Part shown: positions 24,755 through 30,192 of the stretch, one piece after another | Layout of the letters: the number at the start of each line of letters is the position of its first letter | How positions within the stretch are numbered: the first letter of the stretch is position 1 | Source: Proluteimonas luteida | Lineage (GTDB): Bacteria; Pseudomonadota; Gammaproteobacteria; Xanthomonadales; Xanthomonadaceae | Assembly: GCF_021191695.1 (NCBI RefSeq) | Contig: NZ_JAIWPT010000002.1 | Coordinates: 62,001 to 126,000, forward strand | DNA length: 64,000 nucleotides | Direction of reading: 5' to 3' | Translations under genes and position numbers: made by a program | Notes under the pieces: model-generated | What the model saw: only the letters and a program-made list of their open reading frames with translations | Database searches by the model: none | What the model was told of the DNA's origin: nothing

Positions 24755-25122
24755 ACACGCGCCGCCGCGACGGCGCAGCGGCGGAACGGCGGGCCTGCGC
24801 GCACCTGCAGGCGGCGGGTCTGCGGCTGCTCGCGGCCAACGTCGCCTGCCGCGGCGGCGAGATCGACCTGGTGATGCGCGACGGCGACTGCGTGGTGTTC
24901 GTCGAGGTGCGGCACCGGCGCAGCGCCGCGTTCGGCGGCGGCGCGGCGTCGGTCGATGCCGGCAAGCGCCGGCGGCTGGTGCTGGCGGCGCAGCAGTTCC
25001 TGCAGGCCGACCGCACGCTGCGCGATCGCCCCTGCCGCTTCGACGTGGTCGAGAGCAGCGGCCCGGCCGACGGCGCGACACTGCGCTGGATCCGCGACGC
25101 GTTCCGCGCCGACGACATCTGA
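24751..25122 (+). CDS. yraN: YraN/UPF0102 family protein, nuclease-like fold
   Basis: 123 aa from a TTG start that overlaps the lpoA stop (TTGA); no ATG or GTG precedes the conserved domain in this frame without running into lpoA. It has the family's restriction-endonuclease-like core: [11 protein letters not shown] (acidic pair) and [10 protein letters not shown], then [14 protein letters not shown], and it ends [11 protein letters not shown]. Function is not firmly known; family members sit beside rsmI and lpoA as here. Confidence 0.9.
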
Positions 25123-25171
25123 GCGTCGGCTTTAGGTTCTTCGCCCGAGTCCGGGAAAGACGCGCGCCTTG

Positions 25172-25320
25172 CGTAGGTCGGCCCCACGCGGCCGACGTGC
25201 GCGGTGTCCGGGGTCGAGAGGTGCGAGGCGTCCCGGCGTCGGGGGCGTTGCCCCGACCTACGACACATGGCTCCGAAGACTTCTTCCGTCCTGGCGTCGG
25301 GGACGTTGCCCCGACCTGCG
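25172..25320. repeat. GTAGGTCGGGGC-type intergenic repeat, two units
   Basis: A GTAGGTCGGCCCCACGCGGC arm starts at 25172, and GCGTCGGGGGCGTTGCCCCG with GACCTACG ends near 25263. A second right arm lies at 25294-25320. The same unit is found at 31254-31323 and 47568-47639, each time between the ends of operons. No gene lies in 25123-25397. Confidence 0.7.
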
Positions 25321-25397
25321 ACCGGGGAACCCCGGGAGTCGGAAAAGAGCTCCGCTCTGTGGCACCGGCCGGACGCGGACAGGCCGACCGCAGGTGG

Positions 25398-26021
25398 TTA
25401 CGCGGGGTCGGTATCGGGCCGGAAGCGCTTGCCGGCCAGGCGGATGCTCCAGACCAGTTCCACCATCGCCAGGTTGTTGAGCAGCGGCTCGCCGCCGGCG
25501 ATCAGCCAGTAGCCGGCGCCGTCGACCCAGAACGGCACGAACGACCAGTCCGGCACCAGCAGGTGCATGTCGGAGAAGAACGACACGTAGCGCTGCGCGC
25601 CGGTCCAGCCGCGCTGGCTCTGGCGGCGCGCGTAGGCGGCGAAGTCCGCGGCGGCGACGCTCAGCGTCTCGGCCTCGTCGAGGTCGACGCCGGAATAGCC
25701 CAGGCAGAATCCGCCATCGGACGCCAGCACCGCGCGGCGCTCGCCCGACAGCGGCGCGATCACGTGCTGGGCGAAATCGTCGAGGCGCACGTCCGGGCCC
25801 GGCACCGGCCGGCGCAGCACGCCGATCCAGTCGCGGCTGCGCGCCTCGGCCAGGATCTCCTGGTGGTGGCGGATGCCCTCGGCCCACTCGTCCTGGCGCA
25901 GCGCGTTGCGCGCCGACAGCAGTTTCTGCAACGCCAGCTGGGTCGCATCGGGCTCGGCATCGGCGAACGCGTGCAGCGTGCCCAGCGGGGTCAGCGTCAG
26001 CCAGACATCGGTCTCGGTCAT
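25398..26021 (-). CDS. Uncharacterised 207-aa protein, last gene of the Roadblock/PAS operon
   Basis: I do not recognise this family with certainty. It is a soluble protein without signal peptide or membrane segment. The middle part (about residues 93-135) has hydrophobic-strand then helix periodicity like a Roadblock/LC7 domain (VLASDGGFCLGYSGVD followed by a helix). Then comes a well-packed aromatic C-terminal half (FFSDMHLLVPDWSFVPFWVD). Its start overlaps the stop of the CxxCH gene (ATGA), so the two are probably made together. Possible role: second Roadblock-like partner; this is inference. Confidence 0.75.
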   Translation of the reverse strand: MTETDVWLTLTPLGTLHAFADAEPDATQLALQKLLSARNALRQDEWAEGIRHHQEILAEARSRDWIGVLRRPVPGPDVRLDDFAQHVIAPLSGERRAVLASDGGFCLGYSGVDLDEAETLSVAAADFAAYARRQSQRGWTGAQRYVSFFSDMHLLVPDWSFVPFWVDGAGYWLIAGGEPLLNNLAMVELVWSIRLAGKRFRPDTDPA

Positions 26022-26686
26022 CGCGGCATGTCCATCAGAAGGAATCCCTGCCCCGGCGTCGCGTCTGGCTGCGCGTCGCCGAAGCTGTCGTGCTGGGCGA
26101 GCCAGGCCGATACCCGCTCCCAGCGCTCGTCGACGACGATGTCGGCGCGGCGCAGGTCGCGCATCGCCAGCATGAAGGCGAGCTTGTCGTGGCAGGAGAT
26201 GCAATGGTCGAGGAAGCGCTGCTCGATCCGCGCGGCCTCCGTCGGCTCGCCTTCGTACAGCGCCTCGAACACCTCGCGCGCCAGTCGCCGCGAATCGTCG
26301 GAATTGCCGCGGCGCCGGCGCGTCGGCACTTCGGCCGACGGCTGCGCCAGCACGCTCCAGCGCGTGGCCAGCGGGGTGATCCGGAACACCCGCGGCCCGC
26401 GCACCGCGCGCGCGAACGCCTGCAGCACGTAGGGATTGAGCCGCGCGCCGACCATCTGCAGCGCGCTGTCGCAGACCGTCGGCTCGTCGCGCGACAGGCC
26501 GACGAAGAGGTCGGCCAGCACGCCCTGCACCGGCTCCTCGCCGGGCAGGCGCAGCGCCGCGTGCAGCCGCGCCAGGTGCGCGCCGGCATCCTTCGGGCGC
26601 CTGGCGACCTCGCGGGTATGGCTGCGCAGCGTCGCGCGGACGTCGGCGTCGGCAGCGCGCTGGTCGTGGTCGGCGGGCGTTCGCAT
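26018..26686 (-). CDS. Uncharacterised 222-aa protein with a CxxCH motif
   Basis: Family not recognised. It is mostly helical and Arg-rich, with no signal peptide or membrane segment. A single CISCH (Cys162, Cys165, His166) has the form of a c-type haem attachment site. However, a protein without export signal would not meet the periplasmic haem ligation machinery, so a metal or redox role of the cysteine pair is equally likely. Its stop overlaps the next gene's start (ATGA), and 3 bp separate it from the PhnD-like gene upstream. Confidence 0.75.
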   Translation of the reverse strand: MRTPADHDQRAADADVRATLRSHTREVARRPKDAGAHLARLHAALRLPGEEPVQGVLADLFVGLSRDEPTVCDSALQMVGARLNPYVLQAFARAVRGPRVFRITPLATRWSVLAQPSAEVPTRRRRGNSDDSRRLAREVFEALYEGEPTEAARIEQRFLDHCISCHDKLAFMLAMRDLRRADIVVDERWERVSAWLAQHDSFGDAQPDATPGQGFLLMDMPR

Positions 26687-26689
26687 CGA

Positions 26690-27451
26690 TCAGTCCAGCA
26701 GGGTGTCCATGAGGTCGATCATGAACTCGACGTCCTCGTCGTCCATCGCCTCGAAGCCCTGCGGCAGGCCAAGCGCCTCGAGCACCGCGGCATCGCCGGC
26801 CGGATTGGCCGAAGCGCGGCCCACGCCCAGCAGCGCGTCGCGCAGCGCCGGCAGGTCGTCGCCGATGCGCGGATGCGCCAGCAGCACGTGGCTGATGTCG
26901 CACAGCCGGCTCTCGACCAGCACGTGCAGGCGTTCGCGGGTCAGCCGCGACAGCGCGTGGTAGGCGTCGGCGAGGAAGAACCCGGCGTCGGCGTCGCCGG
27001 CCAGCAGCTGGCGCGCGAGCGCCGGCCAGCTGTCGGCATGCAGCCACTGCAGGTCGGCATCGGCCAGGTCGGCCGGCTCGAGCAGGCGCAGGCCGATCAG
27101 GCGCACGTCGCGGTTGTCGGTCGCGGCGATGCGGGCGCCGGGCCGGAGGTCCTCGACCACGCGTAGCGGCGAATCCGCGCGGGTGGCGATGACCATCTCG
27201 TCGGAGCGGCCGACCGGGCGCGCGAACGCGCGGTAGCCCTGACCGCGCACCAGCGCGGTGGCATCGAAGGGATTGGCGTAGATCAGGTCGGGCGCGTCGC
27301 CGGCCACCAGCTCGGCCTGCTCGCGGGTATCGGCCGGCATCTGCAGGTGCAGGCCGATGCCCGAGCGGCGCTGCAGCAGGGTGTTGAGCATGTACCAGCC
27401 GGGGAACGCACCGGGCGGGAAATCCGGCGCGACCATGAAATTGAAGGTCAT
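26690..27451 (-). CDS. PhnD-like substrate-binding-fold protein without signal peptide
   Basis: 253 aa that resemble the phosphate/phosphonate-binding periplasmic proteins (PhnD superfamily). Features are the start MVAPDFPPGAFPGWYMLNTL, ANPFDATALVRGQGY, the RSDEMVIATRADSPL strand and the DADAGFFLADAYHAL region in the second lobe. There is no signal peptide at the chosen ATG (27451, overlapping the PAS gene stop), and the longer frame does not add one. There are no permease or ATPase genes nearby. It is therefore likely a cytoplasmic ligand-sensing domain protein rather than a transporter part. Confidence 0.78.
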   Translation of the reverse strand: MTFNFMVAPDFPPGAFPGWYMLNTLLQRRSGIGLHLQMPADTREQAELVAGDAPDLIYANPFDATALVRGQGYRAFARPVGRSDEMVIATRADSPLRVVEDLRPGARIAATDNRDVRLIGLRLLEPADLADADLQWLHADSWPALARQLLAGDADAGFFLADAYHALSRLTRERLHVLVESRLCDISHVLLAHPRIGDDLPALRDALLGVGRASANPAGDAAVLEALGLPQGFEAMDDEDVEFMIDLMDTLLD

Positions 27452-27966
27452 GCGGCAGCCTCCGGCAGCGCCGGCCTGCCCGCGGCTTCGGCGTCCAGCC
27501 ATTGCCGGTACAGCGGCAGCACCGCCTCGATGCGCGCGCGCGACGGTTTGCGCCGGACCGAGGTGTAGCCGACCACGCGGCCGTCGCGGATATTCGGCAG
27601 CGCGGTCGCGTAGACCCAGTAGTACGCGCCGTCACGGCGCAGGTTCTTGACGTAGCCGTGCCATTTGCCGCCGGCCTGCACGGTCTCCCACAACTGCCGG
27701 AATGCCTCGCGCGGCATGTCGGGGTGGCGCAGGATGCTGTGCGGCGCGCCGATCAGCATCTCGCGCGGATAACCGCTGATCTCGACGAATGCGGCATTGG
27801 CATGGGTCAGCACGCCATCGAGGTCGGTCCGCGAGACGATCAGGCGCCCGTCGGGATACGGCACTTCGCGTTCGGTCCAGTAGACCAGGCGTTCGCTGCC
27901 GTCGTGGTAGCGCATGCGCATGGACCGGTGCGGCGCCGTGGGCATTTCCATGTCGGGAAGTCGCAT
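27448..27966 (-). CDS. Stand-alone Aer-type PAS domain protein
   Basis: 172 aa. Residues about 40-145 form a PAS domain with the pattern of the aerotaxis receptor Aer: FVEISGYPREMLIGAPHSI, LRHPDMPREAFRQLWETV, WHGYVKNLRRDGAYYWVYA. In Aer this domain binds FAD and reads cellular redox state. Here there is no membrane, HAMP or methyl-accepting domain, so the signal must pass by protein contact, probably to operon neighbours. The stop overlaps the PhnD-like gene (ATGA). Ligand binding is inferred from family. Confidence 0.88.
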   Translation of the reverse strand: MRLPDMEMPTAPHRSMRMRYHDGSERLVYWTEREVPYPDGRLIVSRTDLDGVLTHANAAFVEISGYPREMLIGAPHSILRHPDMPREAFRQLWETVQAGGKWHGYVKNLRRDGAYYWVYATALPNIRDGRVVGYTSVRRKPSRARIEAVLPLYRQWLDAEAAGRPALPEAAA

Positions 27967-27976
27967 CGCCGCCCCC

Positions 27977-28339
27977 TCAGATGATCTTCGCGAGCGCGGC
28001 GGCCGCGCGCTTGATGTCGAGGAACACCAGGCCGAGCCGGGCGTTGCCGCGCGCGAGCACGGTCAGCACCGCCTCCGGACCGGCCGCGGACATGATCACG
28101 TAGCCGTCCTCGCCCTGCACCAGCACGCGTTCGAGCTTGCCGCGCGCCAGTTCGCGCGCGGTGCGCTCGCCCAGCGCCAGCAGCGCGGCGGACATCGCGC
28201 CGACGCGGTCCTCGTCCATGCCCTGCGGCATCGCCGAGGACATCATCAGGCCGTCGACCGAGATCAGCGCCGACGCCTCGATGTCCGCGGTGGAGCCGTT
28301 GAGGTCGGCGAGGATGTTCTGGAACTGGTCGGTGCGCAT
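27977..28339 (-). CDS. Roadblock/LC7 domain protein
   Basis: 120 aa comprising a single Roadblock/LC7 domain. The first helix is FQNILADLNGSTADIEAS, the strand ALISVDGLMM, the long helix with ALLALGERTARELARG, and the strands ERVLVQGEDGYVIM and LTVLARGNARLGLVFLDI. Such proteins (MglB-like) dimerise and often regulate small Ras-like GTPases; no GTPase gene lies in this window. It is the first gene of a five-gene operon, 10 bp before the PAS gene. The start is 61 bp downstream of an FNR-type box. Confidence 0.9.
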   Translation of the reverse strand: MRTDQFQNILADLNGSTADIEASALISVDGLMMSSAMPQGMDEDRVGAMSAALLALGERTARELARGKLERVLVQGEDGYVIMSAAGPEAVLTVLARGNARLGLVFLDIKRAAAALAKII

Positions 28340-28399
28340 GACGATGGAAACCCGCAGGAAGAATGCGACGTATTGGACGCGCCGGGCCGCGTGGCTGCG

Positions 28400-28413
28400 T
28401 TGATCTGGATCAA
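28400..28413. promoter_or_regulatory. Perfect FNR/ANR-family binding site
   Basis: TTGATCTGGATCAA equals the consensus TTGAT-N4-ATCAA. Its centre is about 43 bp from the start predicted by a CAATAC -10 at 28375-28370 on the minus strand. That is close to the -41.5 position of activating FNR sites and points to the Roadblock operon as target. The divergent thioredoxin gene starts 220 bp away on the other side. Confidence 0.75.
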
Positions 28414-28633
28414 TGCAGCGGCCGGCGGCCCGGAAACCCGTGGATGCCGTCGTCGATTGCGCGATGCCCATCACAGTGACGACCACCCGCGCGCACGCGC
28501 CACGACCGCGGGATGCGCGACGCGCGCTCACTCCCATTGCGGCGGGCGGCGTGCGACGATCGCCACGGGGAAGTGCCCGGTAGTCTCCGGGCCCATGGCA
28601 ACAGGGATCGCGGGGATCCCGGGGAGAACAGGG

Positions 28634-29185
28634 ATGCGGATGACTTCACTGCTGCTGGCCATCGTGCTGGCCGCGGGCAGCGGGTGGGTGCAGGCGGCCG
28701 CGGGATCGAAAGCGCCGCCGGCGGTCGGCAGCATGCCGCCGAACACGATCGGCAAGGACAACGCAGGCAACCCGGTCGACCTCGACGCGCTGCACGGCAA
28801 GGTCGTGATCGTCACCTTCTGGGCCTTGTGGTGCCCGCCGTGCCGCCAGGAACTGCCGGTGCTCGGCCACTTCCAGCAGGTGGTCGGCCGCGACGCGCTC
28901 GAGGTGGTCGCGGTGAACTTCAAGGAGCCGCGCCGCGATTTCGTCAACCTGGTCCGCAGGAACCGCGACATCGACCTGACCTGGGTCCACGATGCACGCG
29001 GCACGCTGGCCGCGCAGTACGGCGTGGAGTCGCTGCCGCACATGTTCATGCTCGACCGCGAGGGCCGCGTGGCCTTCACCCATCGCGGCTACAGCGAGGC
29101 GGCGCTGCCGGGCATCATCGACGAGGTGCTGAGCCTGCTGCCCGACGAGGTGAAGGCGCGTCCGGCGGCAGCGCCGCCGCGCTGA
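28634..29185 (+). CDS. TlpA/ResA-like periplasmic thioredoxin
   Basis: 183 aa: signal peptide (1-22, ending WVQAAA) or uncleaved anchor, then a thioredoxin fold with the active site WCPPC (Cys67, Cys70) and the cis-Pro ESLPHMF. The insert between them is typical of the TlpA/ResA group. These proteins reduce disulfides in the periplasm, for instance in cytochrome c maturation. A good GGGGAG ribosome site precedes the ATG. It is divergent from the Roadblock operon, sharing the intergenic region with the FNR box; substrate unknown. Confidence 0.9.
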   Translation: MRMTSLLLAIVLAAGSGWVQAAAGSKAPPAVGSMPPNTIGKDNAGNPVDLDALHGKVVIVTFWALWCPPCRQELPVLGHFQQVVGRDALEVVAVNFKEPRRDFVNLVRRNRDIDLTWVHDARGTLAAQYGVESLPHMFMLDREGRVAFTHRGYSEAALPGIIDEVLSLLPDEVKARPAAAPPR

Positions 29186-29223
29186 GCGCCCGGGCGCGGC
29201 GCCGGCGCCGGCGCCGATGCGGC

Positions 29224-30192
29224 TCAGCGCGCGCCGAAGTGGTCGAAGCCCGACCTGTCCGCCCGCCAAGGCATTCCCGTCGCGTCGCGCGCGTCGACGC
29301 CCTGCCCGGCCACGATGCGGCCGACACGGGTCACCGCGCAGCCGCTGCCCGCGGCCGCCCGCGCCACCGCGGCGCGGGCCTGCATCGGCGCGGCGAAGCA
29401 CAGTTCGTAGTCGTCGCCGCCGGTCGCCTGCAGGCGACGGCGCGCATCGCCGGCATGCAGTGACCGCAGCGCCGGCGACGCCGGCAGCGCATCGACATCG
29501 ATTTCGGCACCGACGCCGCCGGCCTGGCAGACATGGCCGAGATCGGCCAGCAGGCCGTCGGAGACGTCGATCGCGGCGTGCGCGATTGCGGCCAGCGATT
29601 CGCCCAGCGCGACCCGCGGGGTCGGCCGGTCGAGGCGCGCGCGCAGCCACGGGTCCGGTGCGGCATCGCCCGCGGACCACTGCATCAACGCGGCCGCGGC
29701 ATCGCCGAGCGTGCCGCTGACCCAGATGTCGTCGCCGGCCACGGCGCCGTCGCGGCGCAGCGCGCGGCCGGGCGCGACCAGGCCGTGCACGGCGACGCAG
29801 ACCGACAGCGGCCCGCGCGTGGTGTCGCCACCGACCAGGGCCACGCCGTGCTCGGCGGCGAGCGCGAGGAAGCCGTCGAGGAAACCGTCGACCCAGGCCG
29901 GATCGGAAGCCGGCAACGACAGCGACAGCGTGCACCACGCAGGCGTCGCCGCCATCGCGGCGAGGTCGGACAGGTTCACCGCCAGCGACTTCCAGCCGAT
30001 GCCGGCCGGCGCACTGCCGTCGGGAAAATGCACACCGGCGTTGAGCGTATCCATCGCGACCACCAGCTGGCGGCCGGGCGGCAACTGCACGATGGCGGCG
30101 TCGTCGCCGATGCCGAGCACCACGTCGTCGCGCGCCGCGACCCGCGCGCGGATCCGCGCGATCAGGTCGAACTCGCCGGTGCCGGCCGTCAT
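29224..30192 (-). CDS. thiL: Thiamine-monophosphate kinase
   Basis: Phosphorylates thiamine monophosphate to the active cofactor. 322 aa, normal length. It shows the N-terminal GEFDLIARI, the metal-binding GIGDDAAI and NLSDLAAMAATP motifs, ALVGGDTTRG, IDVSDGLLADLGH and ATGGDDYELCF. It is last in the ribH-nusB-thiL block, 10 bp after nusB, an arrangement conserved in gammaproteobacteria. Confidence 0.97.
   Translation of the reverse strand: MTAGTGEFDLIARIRARVAARDDVVLGIGDDAAIVQLPPGRQLVVAMDTLNAGVHFPDGSAPAGIGWKSLAVNLSDLAAMAATPAWCTLSLSLPASDPAWVDGFLDGFLALAAEHGVALVGGDTTRGPLSVCVAVHGLVAPGRALRRDGAVAGDDIWVSGTLGDAAAALMQWSAGDAAPDPWLRARLDRPTPRVALGESLAAIAHAAIDVSDGLLADLGHVCQAGGVGAEIDVDALPASPALRSLHAGDARRRLQATGGDDYELCFAAPMQARAAVARAAAGSGCAVTRVGRIVAGQGVDARDATGMPWRADRSGFDHFGAR

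Follow-up and report, generated by a model that had tools for sequence, protein, structure and literature searches.

A five-gene Roadblock operon of Proluteimonas luteida as a probable FNR-controlled sensor module related to Group 3 MglA/MglB systems

What could a Roadblock/LC7 protein, an Aer-type PAS protein and a homolog of phosphonate-binding proteins do together in one operon? The question is raised by five minus-strand genes at positions 25398–28339 of a 64,000-nucleotide stretch of the Proluteimonas luteida genome (contig NZ_JAIWPT010000002.1, positions 62,001–126,000; this whole stretch is called the window). We propose, with a probability of roughly 0.6, that the operon encodes an FNR-induced cytoplasmic redox/ligand sensor module that derives from a Group 3 MglA/MglB system and has lost its own GTPase. 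A sequence-only reading of the locus had suggested an oxygen/redox-responsive signalling complex; from that interpretation the gene set, the FNR-type promoter, the Aer-type PAS protein and the cytoplasmic PhnD-like protein are retained, whereas the identity of a 207-aa product, the meaning of a CxxCH motif and the GTPase picture have changed.

Five gene products and their predicted roles

The operon comprises five open reading frames (ORFs), genes 1–5 in reading order, joined in turn by a 10-bp gap, a 4-bp ATGA overlap, a 3-bp gap and a further 4-bp ATGA overlap. The tight packing described in the sequence-only reading was borne out, and all five frames are intact. Conservation was followed in alignments of non-redundant picks less than 80% similar, each with the window protein added (A1, 24 of 26 picks used; A2, 20 of 20; A3, 23 of 24; A4, 29 of 33; A5, 6 of 7 plus three added by hand); loci L001–L010 were excluded as short copies.

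Two of the products are assigned to the Roadblock family. Gene 1 (27977–28339, minus strand) encodes a 120-aa MglB-like Roadblock/LC7 protein that matches Pfam Robl_LC7 (E 7e-17) and, as a profile against the PDB, Roadblock 7f8m (E 5e-33) and MglB 6h5b (E 3e-5). Gene 5 (25398–26021, minus strand; 207 aa) gave only a sub-threshold Robl_LC7 match in Pfam (E 0.1). Its AlphaFold2 model, built from 17 sequences with a predicted local distance difference test score (pLDDT) of 86, returned the Roadblock/LC7 structure 3kye as the top Foldseek match (E 1e-3), followed by Myxococcus MglB. VIA-align placed the similarity within residues 76–198, behind an N-terminal extension of ~75 residues (3kye, Z 9.3, 108 residues aligned, root-mean-square deviation (rmsd) 3.3; Myxococcus MglB chains, Z 8.2–8.3). 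By its predicted fold, gene 5 encodes another Roadblock protein beside that of gene 1; its place in the operon is as previously described, and its identity is corrected here. Group 3 systems are marked by one or two MglB-type Roadblock proteins, and the operon holds two, recognized by Pfam and PDB profile in the case of gene 1 and by fold in that of gene 5.

Gene 2 (27448–27966, minus strand) encodes a stand-alone PAS protein of 172 aa (Pfam PAS_3, E 3e-15) whose profile matches the crystal structure of the Aer PAS domain, 8dik (E 8e-46). Residues that bind flavin adenine dinucleotide (FAD) in E. coli Aer, as described in the available parts of PMC9668731 and PMC2628428, were mapped by hand onto the gene 2–8dik alignment: equivalents of R57, H58, W70, N85 and R115 are present in 24 of 24 gene 2 sequences, and those of H53 and D60 in 21 and 20 of the 24, respectively. 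The Aer-type assignment of the sequence-only reading thus holds, with the 8dik match and the retained FAD contacts, and gene 2 is a predicted FAD-binding redox sensor. An Aer-like PAS protein separate from its transducer is also described in CetB of Campylobacter jejuni (PMC2628428, as far as its available text goes). Unlike CetB and Aer, gene 2 belongs to a conserved set in which its neighbors are Roadblock, PhnD-like and helical genes; no chemoreceptor or HAMP partner gene lies in this conserved neighborhood, a remote partner not having been looked for.

Gene 3 (26690–27451, minus strand; 253 aa) belongs to the PhnD-like family of substrate-binding proteins and matches Pfam Phosphonate-bd over nearly its whole length (E 8e-38); its nearest PDB match, PtxB, is weak (E 0.0014). 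The aligned homologs start near MTxNFLIAPDF and show no hydrophobic leader by eye. This N-terminus is conserved, as is a C-terminal tail, MIDLMDTLLD / EDAEFMIDLMDTLLD. In PtxB, a Ser/Thr-rich loop binds the anion; the corresponding position in the gene 3 family reads TDNRDVKLIG or similar, and because the loop is replaced, phosphonate binding by gene 3 is not expected. Gene 3 thus shares the Phosphonate-bd family and a weak profile match with the PhnD/PtxB binding proteins and differs from them in lacking a signal peptide, a transporter gene (none occurs in the conserved gene set) and the Ser/Thr-rich loop. Since no signal peptide is seen in the sequence, we take the protein to be cytoplasmic, in agreement with the sequence-only reading. 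Phosphonate uptake was considered and rejected, as neither a signal peptide nor a transporter gene was seen.

Gene 4 (26018–26686, minus strand; 222 aa) has no match in Pfam or NCBIfam. Its AlphaFold2 model (pLDDT 87.5) is all-helical, with nine helices; the best Foldseek match has an E value of 0.35, and the best VIA-align match, a spliceosomal protein (Z 9.0, 85 residues, rmsd 2.8), falls in a range common for helical models. The CxxCH motif to which the sequence-only reading had drawn attention is complete in only 6 of 25 aligned sequences, the window's included. The first Cys and an Asp five residues on are invariant, whereas the second Cys and the residue after it vary, and the motif is a chance form of a conserved HCxxCxD-like site. 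No leader was seen by eye in the gene 4 sequences. A haem c protein was rejected on these two grounds, the motif not being conserved in the family and no leader being visible, and haem c in the gene 4 product is unlikely.

Downstream of the operon lies a REP-like element (25172–25322), in which a 36-nt unit occurs as two direct copies (92%), together with a 26-nt inverted repeat.

The FNR-type box and its recurrence

A perfect TTGATCTGGATCAA palindrome, TTGATCCAGATCAA in the minus-strand reading, lies upstream of the operon (28400–28413, minus strand). Between its end and the start codon (ATG, 28339) are 60 bp, rather than the ~43 bp given previously. It is the sole match in the window at up to one mismatch, where 0.25 are expected and at least one occurs in 20 of 100 shuffles; the weight of the match therefore comes from its being perfect and well placed, not from rarity at that tolerance. 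The 4.1-Mb genome contains seven perfect boxes, including this one. A −10-like hexamer, TCCAAT (four of six positions; 28372–28377, minus strand), follows 22 bp past the box. In a class II FNR promoter the box is centred near −41.5 and accompanied by a −10 element, which corresponds to this 22-bp spacing. The operon promoter, with its predicted transcription start, has this class II geometry.

The arrangement recurs in relatives. Of 12 promoters inspected, nine have their best −10 hexamer at exactly 22 bp past the box (among them those of the window, Stenotrophomonas, Xanthomonas, G101 and G141; the exceptions being Snodgrassella, L023 and Moraxella lacunata), and the AA(T) columns of the −10 region are conserved in an alignment of 11 promoter sequences. 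Across 108 relative loci (1.61 Mb) there are 12 perfect boxes, eight of which sit 59–133 bp upstream of a Robl or PAS gene. The binomial p for this placement in 300-bp upstream stretches is ~1e-11, a value that ignores kinship among loci, many of which are close relatives. FNR-type control from a perfect TTGAT-N4-ATCAA, as put forward in the sequence-only reading, is thus strengthened by recurrence with a fixed −10 spacing.

A candidate regulator is encoded in the same genome: a CRP/FNR protein with an N-terminal C-x2-C-x7-C and an ETVSR recognition helix, which we take to be the marks of an FNR-type regulator and which we call fnr-like. Another perfect box of this genome (contig C51, 99244–99257; L224) lies between the fnr-like gene and cydA, which encodes cytochrome bd oxidase subunit I. 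Two further boxes stand 160–190 bp upstream, one of a glyceraldehyde-3-phosphate dehydrogenase gene and the other of an Lnb_N-domain ORF, and yet another lies next to a PPC-domain ORF. Among nine genomes checked, an FNR-family match was found in 7 of 7 with a perfect box (one above the cut-off) and in neither of two boxless Psychrobacter genomes.

The upstream region is shared with a divergent redoxin/TlpA-like gene (28634–29185, plus strand; Pfam Redoxin, 3e-19); because the box is 220 bp from that gene, it fits the operon better. Loci L016 and L018 each contain two tandem Robl–PhnD units, with a perfect FNR box only at the PAS-containing unit.

Gene order in relatives and the MglA-type GTPase

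A gene 3 scan of genome contigs supplied the relatives, the best 80 of 218 being kept as named loci. Of these, 53 are from Psychrobacter, the remainder coming from Moraxella, Neisseriaceae, Comamonadaceae, Stenotrophomonas, Xanthomonas and others; the closest among the 80, by gene 3 identity, are Stenotrophomonas (70%), Xanthomonas (66%) and Accumulibacter (63%). The window's five-gene order recurs in 55 of the 80 (53, plus two in which gene 4 is split), and 51 of these 55 are from Psychrobacter. Twelve loci, ten complete and two ended by a contig end, have the order Robl–PAS–PhnD–CxxC–REC–GTPase–R5, in which R5 is gene 5 and REC is a putative receiver gene assigned by position. The receiver-position gene occurs in 14 of the 80, namely the 12 with a GTPase together with L020 and L023, which have no GTPase in the locus. 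A partial set is found in 11 loci, eight being PAS–PhnD types from Neisseriaceae, and other genomes of the class show the order CxxC–REC–GTPase–R5–Robl–PAS–PhnD. The check for gene co-occurrence put forward in the sequence-only reading therefore returned a conserved set in several genera. One of the loci, L026 (BMPS01000005.1), is titled Streptomyces cinereus JCM 3040, while its operon flanks are common to Moraxella loci L029 and L042, a mismatch that suggests an error in either the record title or the assembly. In three further loci, an extra ORF of 187–221 aa stands between the gene 5 and gene 1 homologs (L193, 7056–7649; L200, 6591–7154; L204, 7029–7694).

The GTPase of the relatives has a GPVGAGKT-like G1, PGQ in G3, a G4 mostly without lysine, and DAR in G5, features that the available text of PMC4316618 also describes for Group 3 MglA. 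Judged by these motifs, the gene set of the relatives includes a GTPase of the Group 3 MglA type. The association was examined in a sample of 274 genomes of the class, where strong gene 3 matches (E < 1e-50) number 13 of the 18 at E <= 1e-10, weak matches in G182, G185, G229, G302 and G388 being left out, and strong gene 1 matches (E below 1e-40) number 28 of 39, with 11 left out. Strong gene 1 is present in all 13 gene 3 carriers and the GTPase, found in 46 genomes overall, in 12 of them (the exception being G295); nine of the 13 have all three genes (GTPase, Robl and PhnD) inside a stretch of ~3.5 kb. The Fisher p for gene 3 with the GTPase is 2e-9, a value inflated by relatedness.

The sequence-only reading had found no GTPase gene nearby. 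This is correct for the window operon, where GTPase and receiver genes are absent and genes 4 and 5 overlap by 4 bp, but not for the gene set, since the GTPase is linked in relatives and a divergent one is encoded on another contig. Coupling of an MglA-type GTPase to MglB genes is accordingly lacking at the window operon and found in relatives. Because L013, from a genome of the same taxonomic order as the window's, keeps CxxC–REC–GTPase–R5 on a 4.1-kb contig, GTPase loss is the simpler history. The sole related GTPase found in the window's genome, 38% identical to that of Polaromonas and divergent, is encoded on contig C48, in a separate Mgl-type locus with a Pfam-less receiver-position ORF and a Roadblock ORF (~152865–155333; L105, 6866–9334). 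In the tree it pairs with the Xanthomonas XNM01 GTPase on long branches, apart from the operon-linked GTPases, the deeper fork being weak.

Eighteen genomes without a linked GTPase were searched with a Group 3 profile (those of 14 named loci among the 80, together with G101, G141, G250 and G295; L020 and L023 stand outside this genome-wide test). Nine have a Group 3 GTPase elsewhere and nine have none at E 1e-8. All four PAS–PhnD loci without the full set (L078, L079, L085 and L098) come from genomes with a GTPase elsewhere, as against neither of G250 and G295. PF03029, which matches this GTPase better than any other Pfam family, had no hits in any of the nine GTPase-less genomes, while both positive controls were found, one only at E 5e-4. 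The Roadblock loci of G295 (L195) and G250 (L204) keep a receiver-position ORF and have no GTPase.

Proposed function, alternatives and significance

On the reading we favor, the operon descends from a Group 3 system of Ras-like GTPase and Roadblock proteins. Under low oxygen, FNR bound at the box, at about −41.5, would activate transcription. The stand-alone Aer-type PAS protein would bind FAD and monitor the respiratory chain's redox state, and the PhnD-like protein, which lacks an export signal, may add a second input, either a small molecule or a conformational signal. Both proteins could dock on a platform formed by the two Roadblock proteins and the gene 4 protein, as the conserved gene order suggests. 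The ancestral platform would have governed the nucleotide state of a GTPase of the MglA type, one working with a receiver-like protein, with type IV pili or cell polarity perhaps as the output. Here the receiver and GTPase genes would have dropped out and five genes stayed, so that output would pass through the divergent C48 MglA or directly through the Roadblock complex.

The first of these routes, in which the five proteins would still have a GTPase as their output, is a possibility to which we give limited credence. The C48 GTPase, with PGQ in G3 and DAR in G5, is encoded beside the receiver-position ORF and a Robl_LC7 ORF; remote GTPases occur in 9 of the 18 genomes without a linked one, including 5 of 12 with the five-gene form, and in two Snodgrassella and in Stenoxybacter the GTPase stands with Robl and gene 5 homologs at a second locus. 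The position of the C48 GTPase with XNM01 on long branches outside the operon-linked GTPases, albeit with a weak deeper fork, speaks against this, as do related GTPases in the same-family genome G013, which is without a strong PhnD, and the single-contig relatives G101 and G141, which have the operon and no such GTPase. The latter two genomes support another possibility, which is also doubtful: that Roadblock signalling is here GTPase-free, and that the two Roadblock proteins, the PAS, PhnD-like and helical proteins form a complete sensor–effector complex. Five ordered genes without a Group 3 GTPase or PF03029 are found in G101, G141, Stenotrophomonas L019, Psychrobacter L027, L032 and L047, and L026; G101, G141 and L019 also retain the FNR promoter, and G295 and G250 retain both Roadblock genes without a GTPase. 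It may then be suggested, tentatively, that a self-sufficient low-oxygen redox/metabolite sensor without a Ras-like GTPase arose from an Mgl polarity switch by repeated GTPase loss. These negatives, however, cover the Group 3 profile and an insensitive PF03029 (E 5e-4 for the C48 GTPase), other small GTPase families not having been searched, and include some draft assemblies; nor is an effector domain visible in the five proteins.

It appears improbable that the output is exerted on gene expression through the receiver-like/winged-helix protein, a route put forward for Group 3 MglA systems. In relatives, gene 4 and the GTPase gene do flank a receiver-position gene, and receiver and winged-helix folds were predicted for the Group 3 partner by Wuichet and Sogaard-Andersen (PMC4316618, available portions), but neither the window operon nor any of the 55 five-gene loci contains that gene. 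We regard as more improbable still that the operon is a decaying Mgl remnant without present function: the receiver and GTPase genes are lost and the distribution is patchy, but the five frames are open, every gene family has invariant residues, the FNR promoter is perfect and correctly spaced, and the same five-gene form occurs in 55 loci.

Several observations weigh against the FNR-induced sensor module derived from a Group 3 system. A promoter/terminator scan of 25000–29300 found no sigma-70 consensus promoter, and the fnr-like protein scores 87.8 of 228 bits, under the PRK11161 family cut-off. Among the loci scanned, with the short copies L001–L010 excluded, no Psychrobacter locus has a perfect box, and FNR control is therefore not obligatory. 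The GTPase genomes of the class sample include 34 of 46 without strong PhnD, so that PAS and PhnD are accessories rather than a fixed part, and 21 of 46 without strong Robl; G175 and G320 have a solitary PhnD-like gene and no PAS with it. Gene 5 is patchy, occurring in 9 of 151 genomes of the taxonomic order (strongly in only four) and missing from the one same-genus genome listed. Besides the window's genome, five-gene carriers have a GTPase elsewhere in 5 of 12 cases and none in 7 of 12, two of the latter single-contig, and GTPase output therefore cannot be general. Kinship among genomes inflates all p-values, and co-occurrence is uninformative about a pilus link, PilT being present in 247 of 274 class genomes.

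The sensor-module reading finds its closest parallel in the Group 3 MglA/MglB systems described in the available parts of PMC4316618. The two MglB-type Roadblock proteins and the beta/gamma-proteobacterial range are shared, and in relatives an MglA-type GTPase stands beside a Pfam-less protein in the place of the receiver/winged-helix protein. The window operon differs in lacking the GTPase and receiver and in adding an FNR promoter and three products, the Aer-type PAS, PhnD-like and helical proteins; that text mentions none of these additions. In Snodgrassella, a mutation in the orphan 121-aa mglB (mglB-3) favored colonization, potentially by altering type IV pili-dependent motility, according to the accessible portions of PMC11112851. 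That system likewise has a Group 3 MglA, several MglB proteins and a 121-aa Roadblock protein, compared here as a family member and not as a gene 1 ortholog; it differs in that the PAS and PhnD genes of two Snodgrassella (L085, L098) are at a separate locus and are not mentioned in the text available from that paper. By this case, the nearest biology is that of type IV pili, a possible output here. Actinobacterial conservons similarly combine a sensor, a Roadblock protein and a Ras-like GTPase in one operon; their sensor is histidine-kinase-like (PMC13343842, both points from its available text), whereas here the inputs are PAS and PhnD-like proteins and the window form is without a GTPase.

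In titles and abstract openings of the open-licence literature, we found no description of PAS, PhnD-like or FNR parts in Group 3 Mgl systems, and the words 'roadblock' and 'phosphonate' do not occur in the available text of a paper on the N. gonorrhoeae FNR regulon (PMC1802743). Group 3 MglA systems have been described without a known input signal (PMC4316618, same portions). The gene set offers candidate inputs for these switches, namely FNR control, an Aer-type flavin sensor and a leaderless binding-protein fold, which are tied to the Roadblock proteins because gene order is conserved. Genomes with both Roadblock proteins and no GTPase probe whether Roadblock proteins only regulate GTPases, and what Group 3 GTPase switches sense becomes testable in ordinary laboratory bacteria.

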